The notes beneath the pieces are model-generated. The model was not told where the DNA came from. It saw only the letters and a list, made by a program, of their open reading frames with translations, and did not search any database. From assembly GCA_947258555.1 (NCBI GenBank), contig CAMYJF010000013.1, forward strand, positions 3,060 through 46,846: DNA of 43,787 nucleotides. Reading direction: 5' to 3'. The translations under genes were made by a program, and so were the position numbers. This document shows, piece by piece, positions 37,947 to 43,787 of the stretch. Each line of letters starts with the position of its first letter. The stretch's first letter is position 1. This stretch comes from an uncultured Eudoraea sp. GTDB lineage: Bacteria; Bacteroidota; Bacteroidia; Flavobacteriales; Flavobacteriaceae.

Positions 37947-38792
37947 ATGCCCGACATTCAGGAATTGCAGGATTTGGTGATCCAGGTAAGGCGCGATATT
38001 CTACGAATGGTACATAAGGTAAATTCCGGACATCCAGGAGGTTCCCTGGGATGCACGGAATTTTTTGTTGCCTTATACCATGTCTTGATGAATCGACATG
38101 AGACCTTTACTATGGACGGAATTGATGAAGATATTTTCTTCCTTTCAAATGGCCATATATCGCCAGTATATTATAGTATCCTGGCAAGAGCAGGATACTT
38201 TCCTGTAGATGAACTCAATACATTCCGACTTTTAAATTCGCGCTTACAAGGCCACCCTACAACCCATGAAGGGTTACCCGGGGTGCGCATCGCATCCGGA
38301 TCTTTGGGTCAGGGAATGTCTGTAGCCATAGGGGCTGCCTTGTCTAAGAAGTTAAACAATGATACCTCAATAGTATATAGCCTTCACGGAGACGGAGAAC
38401 TTCAGGAAGGACAGAATTGGGAAGCGATCATGTTTGCTGCAGGCAAGAAGGTGGATAACCTTATCGCTACGATCGACCGAAATGGACAGCAAATTGATGG
38501 AGCTACACAGGACGTAATGCCATTGGGAGATCTGAGGGAAAAATTCGAGGTCTTTGGATGGGACGTATTAGAAATTGAGGAAGGAAATGACCTGGAAGCC
38601 ATCATTAAGGGCATGCAGGAAGCCAAGACCCGAACAGGGAAAGGAAAGCCGGTCTGTGTGATCATGCACACAGTGATGGGCAACGGGGTGGACTTTATGA
38701 TGCACACCCATGCCTGGCACGGCAAAGCACCGAATGATGAGCAGTTAGAAATTGGATTAGCACAAAATAAAGAGACCATTGGAGACTATTAA
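37947..38792 (+). CDS. Transketolase, N-terminal (TPP-binding) subunit
   Basis: A 281-aa protein equal to the first half of a classical 660-aa transketolase. TPP/metal binding is visible as HGDGELQEGQNWEAIMFAAG (GDG...N motif, about residues 148-160), and GHPGGSLGCTEFFVALYHVL is the usual N-terminal block. Together with the next gene it forms a complete enzyme of the pentose phosphate pathway. The split form is common in flavobacteria and archaea. It overlaps the frame of the second subunit's TTG but ends 22 nt before that subunit's preferred ATG. Confidence 0.95.
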   Translation: MPDIQELQDLVIQVRRDILRMVHKVNSGHPGGSLGCTEFFVALYHVLMNRHETFTMDGIDEDIFFLSNGHISPVYYSILARAGYFPVDELNTFRLLNSRLQGHPTTHEGLPGVRIASGSLGQGMSVAIGAALSKKLNNDTSIVYSLHGDGELQEGQNWEAIMFAAGKKVDNLIATIDRNGQQIDGATQDVMPLGDLREKFEVFGWDVLEIEEGNDLEAIIKGMQEAKTRTGKGKPVCVIMHTVMGNGVDFMMHTHAWHGKAPNDEQLEIGLAQNKETIGDY

Positions 38793-38814
38793 AACAGAAC
38801 AGGTACAAGAGACC

Positions 38815-39771
38815 ATGAAGAAATATACGGATCAGGGAAAACAGGATACACGAAGTGGATTTGGGGCAGGACTCACAGAATTGGGTCGCACAAATCCAAA
38901 AGTGGTTGCCCTTTGTGCCGATTTGATAGGCTCTTTAAAAATGCAGACATTCCAGGAAGAGAACCCTGAACGATTCTTCCAGGTTGGGGTCGCAGAGGCT
39001 AATATGATGGGGATCGCAGCCGGACTCACTATTGGAGGTTTTATTCCTTTTACCGGAACATTTGCCAATTTCTCTACGGGTCGAGTATATGACCAGATCC
39101 GCCAATCGATTGCCTATTCACATAAGAATGTTAAGATCTGTGCTTCGCACGCAGGAATAACCCTGGGGGAAGACGGGGCCACACACCAGATCCTCGAAGA
39201 CATCGGTCTGATGAAAATGCTTCCGGGCATGACAGTGATCAATACCTGCGATTTTAATCAAACAAAGGCTGCCACACTGGCTATTGCCGATCATAACGGA
39301 CCGGTATACCTGCGTTTCGGGAGGCCGAAAGTTCCGAATTTCACTGAAGCAGACCAGGACTTCCAGATCGGAAAAGCAGTCACTTTACTAGAAGGTAATG
39401 ATGTGACGATTGCTGCAACAGGACATTTGGTGTGGGAAGCTCTTTTGGCTGCAGAAAATCTTGGCAACTTGGGCATTTCTGCAGAAGTCATAAATATCCA
39501 TACGATCAAACCCTTGGATGAGGAAACTTTAGTTAGATCAGTACAAAAAACAGGCTGTATCGTCAGCGCAGAAGAACACAATTATTTAGGAGGCCTTGGG
39601 GAAAGTATCGCACGTACACTTGCAAGCCATCACCCAAGCCCACAGGCATTTGTAGCTACTCAGGATACATTTGGGGAAAGCGGAACTCCCGCACAATTAA
39701 TGGAGAAATACGGACTGAACAATAAAGCCATTGAAGCAGCCGTTGTACAGGTGTTAAAACGCAAGAAATAA
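38815..39771 (+). CDS. Transketolase, C-terminal (pyrimidine-binding) subunit
   Basis: A 318-aa second half of the split transketolase: Tkt_pyr domain starting DTRSGFGAGLTELGRTNPKV, with the catalytic Glu region FFQVGVAEANMMGIAAGLTI, then the C-terminal domain (GNDVTIAATGHLVWEALLAA ... EEHNYLGGLGESIA). ATG 38815 (MKKYTDQGKQD) is preferred over the in-frame TTG at 38779; it lies 22 nt past the upstream stop. The two subunits are almost certainly translated from one mRNA and assemble together. Confidence 0.95.
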   Translation: MKKYTDQGKQDTRSGFGAGLTELGRTNPKVVALCADLIGSLKMQTFQEENPERFFQVGVAEANMMGIAAGLTIGGFIPFTGTFANFSTGRVYDQIRQSIAYSHKNVKICASHAGITLGEDGATHQILEDIGLMKMLPGMTVINTCDFNQTKAATLAIADHNGPVYLRFGRPKVPNFTEADQDFQIGKAVTLLEGNDVTIAATGHLVWEALLAAENLGNLGISAEVINIHTIKPLDEETLVRSVQKTGCIVSAEEHNYLGGLGESIARTLASHHPSPQAFVATQDTFGESGTPAQLMEKYGLNNKAIEAAVVQVLKRKK

Positions 39772-39776
39772 ATAAT

Positions 39777-39794
39777 GGTATCGTTTTTGATACC
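39777..39794 (+). terminator. Weak stem-loop after transketolase
   Basis: GGTATC (39777-39782) pairs with GATACC (39789-39794) around loop GTTTTT; the 3' T-run is short (CTTCTT). Possible weak terminator. Confidence 0.35.
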
Positions 39795-39905
39795 CTTCTT
39801 GCCAAACAATCGAACACTATATGAAATGCGCTCCGTTAAAGGAAATTCCTTCAACTTTATTATTAGCATACTTCATATTGTTGTTCTTAATTTAAATTTA
39901 GAACA

Positions 39906-40505
39906 ATGAGAAAGACACTTATGTCGGCGGCTTTAGCGTTGATCGCTACCGTCACTTTTGCTCAGTCAGAACCCGGGATCGGGCTCAAAGCAGGTTTAAA
40001 TTACAGCGCCAACGGAGATTATTTTGAATCGATCAGTGCTGCGGCACAGGATCCGGATCGAAATGTGGGTTATCACATAGGTCTGTATGGGAAATTGGGA
40101 CGCAATCTCTATTTCCGACCTGAATTTGTCTACACCAAGACCAAATCGGATTATAATGGAGATGTCTTTGATGTCAGCAAACTGGATGCCCCTTTATTGG
40201 TAGGTACCCGCGTTATCGGACCACTACATGTATTCGGTGGCCCGGCTTTTCAATACATCCTCAGTTCCGATTTTGATGGTATCTCCATAGATCGCGTAGA
40301 GAACGATTTTACCGTTGGACTACATCTTGGAGCCGGTGTTAATTTGGGAAGACTAGGCGTAGACCTCCGCTATGAAAGAGGGTTTACTGAAAATGAAGCA
40401 AGATTTATCAATACTAATATTACGACTATTGAAGACAGTCGGATTGATACCCGACCCGATCAATTGGTCTTAAGCGTCTCTATAAGTTTAGGGAAAGACA
40501 AATAA
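39906..40505 (+). CDS. Outer-membrane beta-barrel protein (porin-family type)
   Basis: A 199-aa protein with a signal peptide (about residues 1-20, ending TFAQ) and amphipathic strands of an OmpA/PorT-like small barrel: GIGLKAGLNYSANGDYF, YHIGLYGKLGRNLYFRPEFVYT, DFTVGLHLGAGVNLGRLGVDLRY, and a final strand DQLVLSVSISLGK. Such proteins are abundant in flavobacterial outer membranes and mostly of unknown function. It ends just before the palindromic terminator at 40526-40551 and converges with the FKBP-like lipoprotein. Confidence 0.85.
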   Translation: MRKTLMSAALALIATVTFAQSEPGIGLKAGLNYSANGDYFESISAAAQDPDRNVGYHIGLYGKLGRNLYFRPEFVYTKTKSDYNGDVFDVSKLDAPLLVGTRVIGPLHVFGGPAFQYILSSDFDGISIDRVENDFTVGLHLGAGVNLGRLGVDLRYERGFTENEARFINTNITTIEDSRIDTRPDQLVLSVSISLGKDK

Positions 40506-40525
40506 GAATGCATGGAATTAGTAAG

Positions 40526-40551
40526 CCCTGTAGTACGTACTACAGGGTTTT
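40526..40551. terminator. Perfect 22-bp palindrome, bidirectional terminator (copy 1)
   Basis: CCCTGTAGTAC (40526-40536) abuts its exact reverse complement GTACTACAGGG (40537-40547), followed by TTTTAG. It serves the convergent outer-membrane protein and FKBP-like genes. The same 22 bases recur at 43484-43505. Confidence 0.8.
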
Positions 40552-41524
40552 AGTTTGTATCCGGATCTAAATAATCAGGTATGCCATCACCGTCAGAATC
40601 AGGCGTAGAAATCAGATTTCCTTCTTCATCCAGTATTATCTCCTCTCGGGTAGGCGTCCCGTCCTGATCATCATCCGGATCCAGGAAGTTTGAGAAGCGG
40701 ATCAATTGTCCGGTTGCCCTTTCGGCTTCTTCGTCAGTATTATCATTGTATAGATATCCATCTCCATCCAAATCTTCTTGTATAGACGGTATACCATCCC
40801 TGTCGTGATCTGTAGGATTCACGGCAAATAGGTCAACCTGAAAGATCAGAGGACTGTAGGCGGGTACGATACCCTGGGGTACATTAAAAAAACCAAGGCC
40901 GGATGGCATAAACATTAGGCCCACGCCATATCCTTCTACAGTGACCGTGCCATCTGGATTTTCAATGAAATCCGTACCTGATTTAAAAAATGGGGTTGCT
41001 TCCGAAACTCCTCGTGCTCCTTGCTGTGGTCCCTGCAACTGTGCCAGGTCGAACCAAACACCAAAATTTTCTGAGGCATCAAAGGATTCTCCTGTCAGGA
41101 GTGACCCTTTATAACGAATAAAAACTGAATCTGCTACAGATGGACTCGGCCCTCCGCCAGGTCGGGCGTTTAGATAGTAGAATGTATGATCTATCGTTAC
41201 ATCTTCATCGAGAAAGAACTCTCCGGACTGTATGCTACGGGTCTCACTGCTAACCTGATCGATCAGTGGTGTTTTGTCTGCATTATCACCGGCTATCGTA
41301 TCCAGAACGATCCTGAAATCAAATCCAGCAGGCGGATTGTCAAAATCTTCATAATTGTAGAAATGTGTCTGCAGGTATTCAATCAATTCGGCCGCATCCT
41401 CTGCTTCAACTTCCGCAAAGTCACGAGGTGGGACTGCTACAAAGTCAGGTCCCTCATCATTGGAACAGGAGAAGAGAATAAGAATGAAAATCAGGGGGAT
41501 CACCCGCTTGGAAAGATACATCAC
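40550..41524 (-). CDS. FKBP-like lipoprotein with Asp-rich calcium-type repeats
   Basis: A 324-aa lipoprotein with lipobox LFSC and Cys about residue 20. The central part (about residues 130-235) resembles an FKBP-type peptidyl-prolyl isomerase: DSVFIRYKGSLLTGESFDAS, SGTDFIENPDGTV, YGVGLMFMPSGLGFF, SPLIFQVDLFAV. The C-terminal 90 residues are DxDxDG-type repeats (DHDRDGIPSIQEDLDGDGYL, DPDDDQDGTPTREE, DSDGDGIPDYLD), as in thrombospondin type-3 or dockerin-like calcium loops. It is probably anchored in the outer membrane or periplasm, and may assist folding of exported proteins. The FKBP call is by pattern, so activity is uncertain. Confidence 0.78.
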   Translation of the reverse strand: MMYLSKRVIPLIFILILFSCSNDEGPDFVAVPPRDFAEVEAEDAAELIEYLQTHFYNYEDFDNPPAGFDFRIVLDTIAGDNADKTPLIDQVSSETRSIQSGEFFLDEDVTIDHTFYYLNARPGGGPSPSVADSVFIRYKGSLLTGESFDASENFGVWFDLAQLQGPQQGARGVSEATPFFKSGTDFIENPDGTVTVEGYGVGLMFMPSGLGFFNVPQGIVPAYSPLIFQVDLFAVNPTDHDRDGIPSIQEDLDGDGYLYNDNTDEEAERATGQLIRFSNFLDPDDDQDGTPTREEIILDEEGNLISTPDSDGDGIPDYLDPDTN

Positions 41525-41560
41525 AGCTACTTTTTAAGCCCGCAAGATACAATTTTCCCC

Positions 41561-41568
41561 TATTTTTG
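41561..41568 (+). promoter_or_regulatory. -7 promoter box TATTTTTG for the S4 gene
   Basis: A perfect TAnnTTTG match 29 nt before ATG 41598, in the divergent gap with the FKBP-like gene. Confidence 0.45.
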
Positions 41569-41597
41569 CGTCTTACCTTAACAAAGAATTTGGGAGG

Positions 41598-41969
41598 ATG
41601 CGAATCGACAAATATCTCTGGTGTACTCGTTACTTCAAGACCCGCAACCAAGCCACGGAAGCAACTAAAAAGGGGCATATCCATGTCAATGGTGTAGCTG
41701 CTAAACCAGCTAAAGAGGTCCAAATTGGAGATCACATCATGGTGCGAATAAACCAGGTAAAGTTTGAACTCGAGGTTTTAGAGATCCCTAAAAGCCGGGT
41801 AGGCGCGAAATTAGTAGACGAACTCCGCAAAGATTGCACATCTGAGGAAGCGCTGGCCCATAGGGACATGATGCGACTTGCGAAGAAACACTATAGAAAA
41901 AAAGGTGAGGGCCGCCCCACAAAGAAAGATCGAAGAGATATGGAAGGCTACCTGGATGATACGGAATAG
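41598..41969 (+). CDS. S4-domain RNA-binding protein (Hsp15/YlmH-like)
   Basis: A 123-aa basic protein. The S4 domain fills residues about 1-60: MRIDKYLWCTRYFKTRNQAT, KKGHIHVNGVAAKPAKEVQIGD. The tail is charged (KKKGEGRPTKKDRRDMEGY). This matches the Hsp15 family, which in E. coli binds stalled 50S subunits carrying nascent peptidyl-tRNA. It stands before the PRTase and shikimate kinase genes, an order often seen in flavobacteria. The PRTase gene has its own promoter. Confidence 0.9.
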   Translation: MRIDKYLWCTRYFKTRNQATEATKKGHIHVNGVAAKPAKEVQIGDHIMVRINQVKFELEVLEIPKSRVGAKLVDELRKDCTSEEALAHRDMMRLAKKHYRKKGEGRPTKKDRRDMEGYLDDTE

Positions 41970-41986
41970 CTCATGCCCAATTCTCC

Positions 41987-42019
41987 TTGATCTAAGTAAG
42001 AAACACTTTCCTATCTTTG
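41987..42019 (+). promoter_or_regulatory. Bacteroidota promoter for the PRTase gene
   Basis: TTG at 41987-41989, a 22-nt spacer, perfect TATCTTTG at 42012-42019; ATG follows 19 nt later. Confidence 0.55.
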
Positions 42020-42038
42020 ATCAGAAATCAGGCGGAAG

Positions 42039-42536
42039 ATGAAAAATAAGATCTTAAACCACACACAGATCCAGAACAAAATACGGCGTATTGCCTATCA
42101 GATCTATGAAACCAACGTCAATGAAAAAAAGATCATCATAGCCGGGATAGATGGAGGGGGGCTAAAACTGGCAACCAAAATTCAGGAGATCCTGGAAGAG
42201 ATAACTACGGCGAAAATTGTACTATGTACAGTTAAGATGAATAAGAAAGATCCCCTGGAAAGCGGGGTGACCACTTCCCTGGAAGAAAAGGAGTATAAAA
42301 ATGCCTCTGTGGTTATAGTAGATGATGTATTAAATTCCGGTACAACCCTGATCTATGCTGTGCACCATTTTCTTCAAACCCCTCTGAAGCGATTAAAAAC
42401 CGCTGTATTGGTTAACCGAAATCACAAGAAATACCCTGTTAAAGCAGACTTTAAGGGAATATCATTGTCTACATCCCTGCAGGAGCATATAGAGGTGAAG
42501 ATCGCTCAAAAAAATGCCGCGGTCTATTTAGATTAG
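42039..42536 (+). CDS. Type I phosphoribosyltransferase-domain protein
   Basis: A 165-aa protein. The PRPP-binding loop is VVIVDDVLNSGTTLIYAV (about residues 92-109) and the N-terminal hood includes IIIAGIDGGGLKLATKIQ. It resembles PyrR or hypoxanthine-type PRTases. A PyrR-like role as an RNA-binding regulator is possible but no pyr operon is near. Adjacent shikimate kinase runs convergently and overlaps by 9 bases. Substrate base not predictable. Confidence 0.88.
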   Translation: MKNKILNHTQIQNKIRRIAYQIYETNVNEKKIIIAGIDGGGLKLATKIQEILEEITTAKIVLCTVKMNKKDPLESGVTTSLEEKEYKNASVVIVDDVLNSGTTLIYAVHHFLQTPLKRLKTAVLVNRNHKKYPVKADFKGISLSTSLQEHIEVKIAQKNAAVYLD

Positions 42537-43052
42537 GGCCTCACGGATCTCTTCTACGATCTGTTCTACATCTTTTTCCTCACAACTTATATGGTATTTC
42601 GCCTGGGTGTAATAGGCACTACGCTCAAAAATGTGCTTCCCTATAAACTCTATCATTTCATGATCGTCCAGATGGCTGATCATGGGTCGGTGCGATTTTT
42701 CTTTTTTTAGTCGACTAGCTAAAACAGGAATCGGAGTTTGGAGATAGATCGTCAGGGCCTCACTTTTTTCCAGGAAGAATAGATTATTTCCATAGCAAGG
42801 AGTTCCTCCACCTGTAGCCAGAACATATTGATCATGTGCAGCTAAGAATTCTTCCAGGATTTCAGCTTCTTTTTTTCTGAAGAACAACTCCCCTTTCTTG
42901 GCGAATAGTTTCTGAACGGAAGTCCCTTCAGAATCTTCGATCAAAGTGTCCAGGTCAAAGAAAGGCAATCCGAGGTCATTGGCCAGCGCGGATCCAATGG
43001 CGGATTTTCCACTTCCCATATAGCCAAATAGTGCGATCTTTTGAGGAGTCAT
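42528..43052 (-). CDS. aroK: Shikimate kinase
   Basis: A 174-aa enzyme phosphorylating shikimate at the 3-hydroxyl. Walker A is GYMGSGKSAIGSALA (about residues 10-24), the shikimate-binding DxD region is FFDLDTLIEDSEGTSVQKLF, and further motifs are GELFFRKKEAEIL and ATGGGTPCYGNN. The lid region contains EKSHRPMI. The length fits. It overlaps the 3' end of the PRTase gene by 9 bases. Its pathway partner aroE is at 11558-12298. Confidence 0.96.
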   Translation of the reverse strand: MTPQKIALFGYMGSGKSAIGSALANDLGLPFFDLDTLIEDSEGTSVQKLFAKKGELFFRKKEAEILEEFLAAHDQYVLATGGGTPCYGNNLFFLEKSEALTIYLQTPIPVLASRLKKEKSHRPMISHLDDHEMIEFIGKHIFERSAYYTQAKYHISCEEKDVEQIVEEIREALI

Positions 43053-43115
43053 ACTGCAAAAATGAGGGAAAAGAAACGCAATTCAAAGAATTGCCAAAAA
43101 TATGCGTGGTTGCTC

Positions 43116-43145
43116 TTGAAAAATGGATTTATGATAGTATATTTG
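43116..43145 (+). promoter_or_regulatory. Promoter for tRNA-Lys
   Basis: TTG at 43116-43118, a 19-nt spacer, perfect TATATTTG at 43138-43145. Transcription would start about 43150, so the pre-tRNA carries a 5' leader of about 60 nt including the hairpins at 43156-43193. Confidence 0.65.
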
Positions 43146-43155
43146 CGCCTCCTGC

Positions 43156-43193
43156 GCCCCGATAGTTATCGGGGCTTCGGCGGGCGAAGCCCC
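43156..43193. repeat. Two overlapping palindromic hairpins in the tRNA-Lys leader
   Basis: GCCCCGATA (43156-43164) pairs with TATCGGGGC (43167-43175) around GT. The GGGGC of that stem, within GGGGCTTCG (43171-43179), can instead pair with CGAAGCCCC (43185-43193) around GCGGG. The two stems share five bases and cannot form together. The elements look like small dispersed palindromes common in flavobacterial intergenic DNA. Confidence 0.75.
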
Positions 43194-43211
43194 TCGAAAT
43201 CGAAATGTTTA

Positions 43212-43287
43212 GACCTGATAGCTCAGTTGGTAGAGCATCTCCCTTTTAAGGAGAGGGTCCTGGGTTCGAGCCCCAGTCAGGTCACCA
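43212..43287 (+). tRNA. tRNA-Lys (anticodon TTT), CCA encoded
   Basis: A complete cloverleaf: acceptor GACCTGA (43212-43218) with TCAGGTC (43277-43283), D-stem GCTC/GAGC, anticodon stem TCTCC/GGAGA with loop CTTTTAA giving anticodon TTT at 43245-43247, T-stem CTGGG/CCCAG with loop TTCGAGC. Discriminator A43284 is followed by CCA (43285-43287). It decodes AAA/AAG. Confidence 0.95.
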
Positions 43288-43295
43288 GAGAGAGC

Positions 43296-43323
43296 AAAAC
43301 CCACCCAAAAGGTGGGTTTTTAT
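43296..43323 (+). terminator. Terminator after tRNA-Lys
   Basis: AAAACCCACC (43296-43305) pairs with GGTGGGTTTT (43311-43320) around CAAAA, then more T. The CCCACC/GGTGGG core is the same as in the rplT terminator. Confidence 0.9.
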
Positions 43324-43330
43324 TTTGAAG

Positions 43331-43397
43331 CTAATTCGAGCTCGCTCGAGATTAGCGAAGAAATAATAAACCATGCCTTCGCTAGAAGGCTGGGTTT
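43331..43397. repeat. Two further hairpins between tRNA-Lys and the second 3'-end copy
   Basis: CTAATTCGAGC (43331-43341) pairs with GCTCGAGATTAG (43344-43355) with one bulge. GCCTTC (43375-43380) pairs with GAAGGC (43385-43390) and extends to AAACC/GGTTT, followed by TTGCTTTTTG, another terminator-like structure. Confidence 0.65.
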
Positions 43398-43416
43398 TGC
43401 TTTTTGACCTTGGGAC

Positions 43417-43512
43417 GACTGGGTCCAACGAGCGAGCAAAGTGAGCGTAGTTAACCCCAGTCAGGTCACGAAGTGACATGGAACCCTGTAGTACGTACTA
43501 CAGGGTATTTTT
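43417..43512 (+). repeat. Second copy of the tRNA-Lys 3' end plus its own terminator
   Basis: CCCCAGTCAGGTCAC at 43455-43469 is identical to the tRNA T-stem/acceptor 3' end at 43271-43285. GACTGGG (43417-43423) pairs with CCCAGTC (43456-43462), so it recreates a T-arm whose loop is enlarged by about 32 nt of GAGCGAGC-rich DNA. A terminator made of the 22-bp palindrome (43484-43505, then ATTTTTA) follows. The upstream two thirds of a tRNA are absent, so no functional tRNA forms. Confidence 0.75.
43483..43512 (+). terminator. Perfect 22-bp palindrome terminator (copy 2)
   Basis: The same CCCTGTAGTAC plus reverse complement as at 40526-40547, here at 43484-43505, extended by A/T to 24 bp and followed by ATTTTTA. 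Confidence 0.75.
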
Positions 43513-43522
43513 ATGCAATAAA

Positions 43523-43640
43523 ACTGGGGTGAGAACCTGCCTGCCGGCAGGCAGGGTTTATGCCGAGCGTAGCCGAGGGAAGCCCCAGTCAGATCACGAT
43601 CAAGCACAAAACCCCGCCTATACGGCGGGATTTTTTATTT
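43523..43640 (+). repeat. Third copy of the tRNA-Lys 3' end plus its own terminator
   Basis: CCCCAGTCAGATCAC at 43583-43597 differs from the tRNA 3' end by one base (G to A). ACTGGGG (43523-43529) pairs with CCCCAGT (43583-43589). The enlarged loop contains the perfect 20-bp palindrome CCTGCCTGCC/GGCAGGCAGG (43536-43555) and GCCGAGCGTAGCCGAGGGA. A terminator CCCGCC/GGCGGG (43613-43618 with 43624-43629) and ATTTTTT follow. Confidence 0.7.
43613..43640 (+). terminator. Third terminator of the tRNA-Lys tail
   Basis: CCCGCC, loop TATAC, GGCGGG, then ATTTTTTATTTTT. Confidence 0.9.
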
Positions 43641-43787
43641 TTGGGAAACGCCGAGCTTGTTCAAGTGTTTTCATAAAACAAAAAGTCAAGCAAGCATGGC
43701 TTGCTTTGGTTTTGTATTTGCAGTACAGGACCACTGGGCACTGACGAATCGTCCACTAGTCGATTGTCACCGTACTGATCGGAGTAT
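43641..43787. other. Unassigned DNA at the window's end
   Basis: No gene seen. AAGCAAGC (43688-43695) and GCTTGCTT (43699-43706) form an 8-bp stem around ATG, and an imperfect stem AATCG/CGATT lies near 43745-43767. Could be the 5' side of a further gene outside the window. Confidence 0.4.

Follow-up and report, generated by a model that had tools for sequence, protein, structure and literature searches.

A probable tandem array of tRNA-anchored repeat units of the RtT kind behind a tRNA-Lys gene in the Flavobacteriaceae

The 43,787-nucleotide stretch of DNA analysed here (the window), from an uncultured Eudoraea sp. of the Flavobacteriaceae, ends in a tRNA-Lys gene followed by further copies of that gene's own 3' end; with a probability of roughly 0.6, the locus is considered to be an array in which tRNA-anchored repeat units of the type found at tyrT in E. 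coli (RtT) stand in tandem, and not a product of site-specific integration. The observation is real and is wider than the window alone could reveal: units of the same general anatomy, fitted to their own tRNA and with covarying stems, occur across the family, are reordered between sister genomes and are displaced by real islands. The features of the locus, in window coordinates, are as follows.

43212..43287, + strand: tRNA-Lys(ttt), the sole tRNA detected in the window; the source copy (c0) consists of its last 15 nt, 43271-43285
43286..43469, + strand: unit A, second class, 184 nt; terminator hairpin in a predicted four-way-junction-like fold, then a T-arm mimic closing with copy c1
43296..43320, + strand: terminator 1, an arm of unit A
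43406..43467, + strand: minihelix-like T-arm mimic of unit A; GACCT:AGGTC and GACTGGG:CCCAGTC pairing with an enlarged loop in between
43455..43469, + strand: copy c1 of the tRNA-Lys 3' end, exact
43470..43597, + strand: unit B, conserved-motif class, 128 nt; its 3' end is copy c2
43483..43506, + strand: terminator 2, a palindromic stem
43523..43582, + strand: T-stem 5' strand mimic of unit B (ACTGGGG), then GAGAA and GTTTATGCCGAGCGTAGCCGAGGGAAG, the two parted by a 20-bp palindrome at 43536-43555
43583..43597, + strand: copy c2 of the tRNA-Lys 3' end, one change
43598..43787, + strand: unit C, second class; terminator 3 at 43613-43629, T-stem-like 5' strand, then the contig end

An earlier, sequence-only reading of this DNA had described three copies of the tRNA-Lys tail, and these are confirmed: CCCCAGTCAGGTCAC lies at 43271 (inside the tRNA), 43455 (exact) and 43583 (one change), which at one mismatch are the sole sites in the genome (2.73 Mb, 104 contigs); at up to three mismatches the window holds 3 sites versus 0.52 expected, three being reached in 1 of 100 shuffles. 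The terminators that it placed behind the copies are indeed all three different (43296-43320, 43483-43506 and 43613-43629), and the extra copies do carry a T-stem 5' half with an enlarged loop, the folds scoring z -7.3 for unit A and -4.3 for unit B against shuffles. The extra copies are built alike: a T-stem 5' strand that is new, a loop that is structured and enlarged, and the copied T-stem 3' strand with the acceptor end. The window contains one unit of the conserved-motif class (B) and two of the second class (A and the contig-cut C); the counterpart of unit C in sister genome G001 closes with a decayed CCCCAGTC, and the GACCT strand of unit A is also present at loci L336 and L104. As the final base of the window is the final base of contig C13, the array is cut and may be longer. 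Covariance model R1 has a single match in the window, at 43550-43601 in unit B (E 1.5e-6); Rfam matches on the window end besides the tRNA are all under the cut-off, and annotated plasmids gave short matches, none of them useful among the five listed. The stem of terminator 2, around GTAGTACGTACTAC, has further copies in the genome and the counterpart unit in G001 and G002 has a different stem; to judge from these sequences, it looks as if terminator cores had been swapped. The palindrome CCTGCCTGCCGGCAGGCAGG within the unit B motif (43536-43555) recurs at many sites in the genome, in some cases immediately upstream of a tRNA.

When units are set side by side, the copied tail is usually preceded by the complement of the T-stem 3' strand, with a structured loop in the place of the T-loop. 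Covariation supports this hairpin; in alignment A1, consisting of 26 units picked for standard spacing from about 50, the paired cells of the outer and inner stems amount to 94.9% versus 83.2% when shuffled, changes on both sides number 37 versus 8.8 when shuffled, and slid-partner controls give 37-68%. Unconstrained RNAalifold retains the inner stem and gives the outer strand other partners, so that the outer stem rests on the count for the named structure and on the match to each tRNA. Among 75 units, one per genome and tRNA, wobble pairs number 74 versus 35 A-C mismatches and 51 other mismatches; this excess of wobble over A-C leans toward a transcribed strand without being decisive, and it is presumed that the units are transcribed, with selection on that strand.

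Tail copies were also sought without the motif. In this blind survey, which allowed up to one mismatch in the 15 nt, among 136 tRNA genes from five genomes, 15 are followed on their own strand, no more than 600 nt downstream, by a repeat of their 3'-terminal 15 nt (G000, 6/27; G001, 4/20; G002, 3/17; G034, 0/36; G027, 2/36); own-tail copies upstream or on the other strand of the 136 genes number zero. The longest Watson-Crick stem in 17 copies from the blind surveys averages 5.3 bp versus 4.0 bp when shuffled, and because these copies include related ones from sister genomes the combined P of 0.001 is optimistic; in five of the 17 (Gly, Arg-cct and Val of G000; Asn and Met of G027) the stem is no better than shuffled. 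Slightly different 15-mers with up to two mismatches add Arg-acg of G000. Of a further 33 tRNAs surveyed in G004 and G016, one, in G004, has an array; the 45 tRNAs of 23 loci from other relatives have none; and 10 tRNAs at named contigs gave arrays at L104 and L110, the latter being the G001 locus again. Letter-by-letter matching identifies L110 with the G001 contig and L114 with the G019 contig (an Algibacter), and shows that L209 overlaps G282 (Maribacter arenosus). The pattern of the Lys extras, AACCCCAGYCMGGTCAC, is present in 10 of 397 genomes, the matches in G346 and G175 sitting in intact tRNAs; a contig scan with a shorter pattern has L104 among the matches listed, beside many unrelated high-GC genomes.

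The loop of the conserved-motif class reads GAGAAGTTTA-YNCY-GAGCNNAGTCGA-RGNR-A. Searched as GAGAAGTTTAYNCYGAGC, it is found in 96 of 397 Flavobacteriaceae genomes and 77 of 237 genera, and this strict motif has no match in the other 301; the reversed pattern is absent among the matches listed from the same search. Examination of 110 loci among the matches listed (30 and 80 further stretches) gives 142 distinct occurrences, of which 125 have a tRNA on the same strand within 800 nt upstream. The sequence-only reading had offered a repeat seeded from the tRNA, a T-arm-like stem with a terminator, as its second choice; this is close to right as to the unit, but the dispersal it assumed is not what these 125 occurrences show. 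The tail of the adjacent tRNA itself is carried by 107 of the 142, covering 14 tRNA species (Thr, Gln, Trp, Met, Gly, Leu, His, Arg, Asn, Lys with two anticodons, Ala, Ile and Asp); the 35 occurrences with an unmatched tail include some at contig edges or near-misses and some that are decayed or unrelated. Thirteen of the 110 loci have no tRNA in the examined stretch, several of these being at contig edges or behind an island. In a phylum-wide draw the motif is present in 10 of 41 genomes of the family and in 2 of 354 others, neither near a tRNA, and the reversed pattern has one match. Spread of the motif between tRNAs within a genome was considered and is unsupported: copies from one genome resemble each other no more than would be expected, 252 of 1000 permutations reaching the observed value, and there is thus no sign of recent movement from one tRNA to another.

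The units of the second class (A, and C as far as present) are about 174-206 nt long and have relatives behind Lys, Val, Phe, Arg and Met tRNAs in several genera. In single-sequence folds read by eye, seven of 11 such units, including unit A, form a closing stem that bears three arms and stands ahead of the T-arm mimic; the exceptions are L332 and Val (one), Phe and Met units. The class rests on 12 hand-chosen aligned sequences (alignment A2, 12 of 14 units, two longer ones of 278 and 290 nt being omitted), and its consensus is therefore provisional.

The order of modules behind tRNA-Lys varies between three genomes of the same genus, being A-B-C in the window, B-C in G001 and B-A in G002. These orders are attributed to recombination or slippage between identical tails and spacers. 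Behind tRNA-Phe, G000 has one unit more than G001, gained or lost exactly at the tail, which is likewise ascribed to recombination between identical tails. Tandem arrays of near-identical units are mostly spaced at 58-135 bp. At L337, L371, L378 and L450 near-identical tandem units have a period of 73-111 bp; several arrays lie at contig ends, as in the window, and arrays therefore probably break assemblies. At least two tandem tRNA-Lys genes are present at 6 of the 30 tRNA-Lys loci examined.

Real integrated elements occur at these tRNAs and show how such an insertion differs from a unit. At a tRNA-Met of G147, a 47.7-kb stretch leads to an attR of 46/47 aligned bases from the anticodon arm, with a repeat unit beyond; a 23-kb stretch at another tRNA-Met, in G376, ends in an attR of 43/47 from the anticodon arm, again with a repeat unit beyond; and a 20-kb island at tRNA-Asn of G236 has a full tyrosine integrase near its end and a core of 30 of 30 bases that ends in the T-arm, then a unit. 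As the unit lies beyond attR in all three cases examined, it is taken to have been there already and to have been displaced by the island. The 47.7-kb stretch has a gene of the Rad52/22 family and a phage-like look. Genes beside the units include an HNH endonuclease and an AAA_15 ATPase together with the integrase at L470 (G236) and an HATPase gene at L468 (G376), where a methyltransferase candidate picked by eye has no Pfam match; these neighbours are possibly defence genes.

Other islands are laid out differently. In G026 (L465-L467, L486) two tRNA-Leu arrays enclose an island of 56.6 kb that has SusD and sulfatase genes, with no tRNA-type attR before the right-hand unit and with an integrase gene just upstream of tRNA-Leu. 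At the tRNA-Lys of Maribacter arenosus (L333) a 15.6-kb island of SusC-like, SusD, two GH32 and hybrid sensor genes is flanked by two near-identical units (176 of 180 positions identical), its site adjoining a shikimate-kinase-like gene; at the tRNA-Lys of G034 (L332) a 5.4-kb island has a sodium:solute symporter gene. No integrase ORF was recognised by eye in the 15.6-kb and 5.4-kb islands. The layouts of the 56.6-kb and 15.6-kb islands are not explained by this analysis. Right-hand island ends at the Lys tail share roughly 90 nt between L332, L333, L335 and L337, from several genera, with an inverted repeat of the TTTACAAATCGTCTACACGAGATGTAAA type some 40-50 nt ahead of the tail; a tmRNA origin of this conserved right end was tried, and no similarity to six tmRNAs compared was found.

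These islands bear on two explanations that invoke integration. The sequence-only reading had preferred to see the copies as scars left where mobile elements had repeatedly entered the tRNA attachment site and been lost again, a view encouraged by integrase pieces near such tRNAs (a Phage_integrase C-terminal remnant beyond the Lys array of G001 and an integrase-like Arm-DNA-bind ORF after tRNA-Phe of G002, both just under the Pfam cut-off, and the gene upstream of tRNA-Leu in G026) and by the Maribacter tRNA-Lys locus with islands ending in the tail. It is now unsupported and considered highly improbable, as a true attR aligns with the tRNA over 30-47 nt, has its start in the anticodon arm and, in all three cases examined, stands upstream of the displaced unit, whereas the window copies share about 15 nt, from the T-stem 3' strand onward, joined to a new T-stem 5' strand; the long identity of an attR, from the anticodon arm or T-loop onward, is absent from them. 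A conserved hairpin with a 5' strand matched to the tRNA across 14 tRNA species is moreover not expected of deletion scars, and no integrase was recognised by eye among the ORFs of window positions 38000-43787. The least probable explanation is an attC-like system in which a recombinase supplied in trans would shift the units and some large cargo, such as polysaccharide islands, as cassettes from tail to tail. The G026 island between Leu arrays and the Maribacter 15.6-kb and 5.4-kb tRNA-Lys islands, lacking a tRNA-type attR before the right-hand unit and an integrase by eye, respectively, would suit such a system, as would the variable-loop hairpin of the unit, which resembles attC in outline; against this, no motif-linked recombinase was found, the Maribacter islands terminate in a different sequence, and homologous recombination between arrays gives the same layout.

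The two remaining explanations dispense with integrases. A self-spreading, REP-like palindromic element that establishes itself behind tRNAs, carries a tail copy along and has no function for the host is thought unlikely; the loop hairpin does resemble dispersed palindromes, its inner hairpin has a match behind Arg-cct of G000 on the opposite strand, other palindromes are inserted in the loop and the distribution is patchy, but the motif is tied to tRNAs and its copies are not unusually alike within a genome, as the permutations above indicate. That the units are decayed tandem duplicates of tRNA genes of which the 3' ends alone were kept is considered highly improbable: the six loci with tandem tRNA-Lys genes and the GACCT retained in unit A, as in the acceptor 5' strand, speak for it, yet no remnant of a D-arm or anticodon arm was seen by eye in the units examined, and the replaced loop is a conserved motif over many tRNA species.

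Under the preferred reading, an array of repeat units of the tyrT kind, each unit would be read as part of the tRNA transcript and would comprise a terminator or other spacer followed by a hairpin that mimics the T-arm, made of the complement of the T-stem 3' strand, a structured loop replacing the T-loop, and the copied T-stem 3' strand with the acceptor end. Units would be gained, lost and reordered through recombination or slippage between identical tRNA tails and spacers. By analogy with RtT, the hairpin may act as an RNA that is released from, or matures with, the tRNA precursor; this role is proposed because PMC4986893 (citing Bosl and Kersten 1991) reports RtT as an RNA released from the tRNA precursor or operons that affects the stringent response, and the same paper ties RtT to other tRNA operons as well as tRNA-Tyr.

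That 14 tRNA species are followed by an RtT architecture, and that roughly one in four sampled genomes of the family has the motif, makes these repeats a comparative problem and raises the questions of which tRNAs carry units, what covaries and what effect deletion has. We know of no settled explanation of the tyrT repeats, partly because they seemed peculiar to a single locus in E. coli. A short tail copy following a tRNA gene is readily mistaken for an integration scar; here scars and repeat units can be separated by where the copied stretch starts. A wider proposal, put forward tentatively and with the odds against it, is that two distant phyla keep one device behind their tRNA genes, an RNA hairpin that imitates the T-arm, carries the exact tail and is re-tailored for each tRNA species; in the Flavobacteriaceae it would serve many tRNAs in two structural classes, one with a four-way junction, and RtT of E. 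coli would belong to a wide and so far unrecognised class of tRNA-tail decoys that act in tRNA maturation, quality control or starvation signalling.

In comparison with known systems, the units share with the attachment scars of integrative elements direct repeats of the tRNA 3' end downstream of the tRNA; they differ in a far shorter identity, a new 5' strand, a conserved hairpin and the lack of an integrase in view, and real islands push them aside. With REP/BIME palindromes they share short palindromic hairpins in variable tandem arrangement; they differ in being tied to tRNAs and carrying that tRNA's own tail, and the dispersal between ordinary genes typical of REP/BIME was not found, 125 of 142 occurrences lying within 800 nt of a tRNA. 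The closest comparison is with RtT (E. coli tyrT/tyrV; RF00391; rttR in MG1655), for which matches occur in 4695 of 5426 genomes at 1-14 places per genome. In the tyrT region of E. coli K-12 the last 19 nt of tRNA-Tyr recur four more times, and Rfam places there four RtT units (RF00391), each closing with a 19-nt copy of the tRNA-Tyr tail; an opening strand complementary to the tail is seen in the three alignments shown, with GAGAAG right after it in three of the four matches. No description of such Flavobacteriaceae arrays was found in the literature searched, most subscription papers lying outside its reach. The Rfam RtT model gave 0 of 60 relatives over the gathering cut-off, with a positive E. 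coli control, and RtT is absent from the window-end matches up to E 5; R1 in turn has no match at the E. coli RtT locus. On the 0 of 60 and the failed R1 match, the units are RtT-like in anatomy and are not members of RtT by model. They differ from the E. coli units, which at the locus examined lie 178 nt apart behind tRNA-Tyr, in standing behind 14 tRNA species, in spacers that often have terminators, and in a loop that is shorter and unlike that of E. coli. GAGAAG follows the 5' strand in both, being part of the Flavobacteriaceae motif by construction; in the window it is split after GAGAA by the palindrome in unit B and is absent from units A and C, and this six-letter match at a fixed place is suggestive only. 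The likeness otherwise extends to repeats directly behind a tRNA with a tail copy at the end (the window and 107 of 142 motif occurrences), an opening strand that pairs with the copied tail, as the covariation indicates, an enlarged structured loop and a variable copy number; as tRNA-tail repeats, the units represent a new form of the RtT type.
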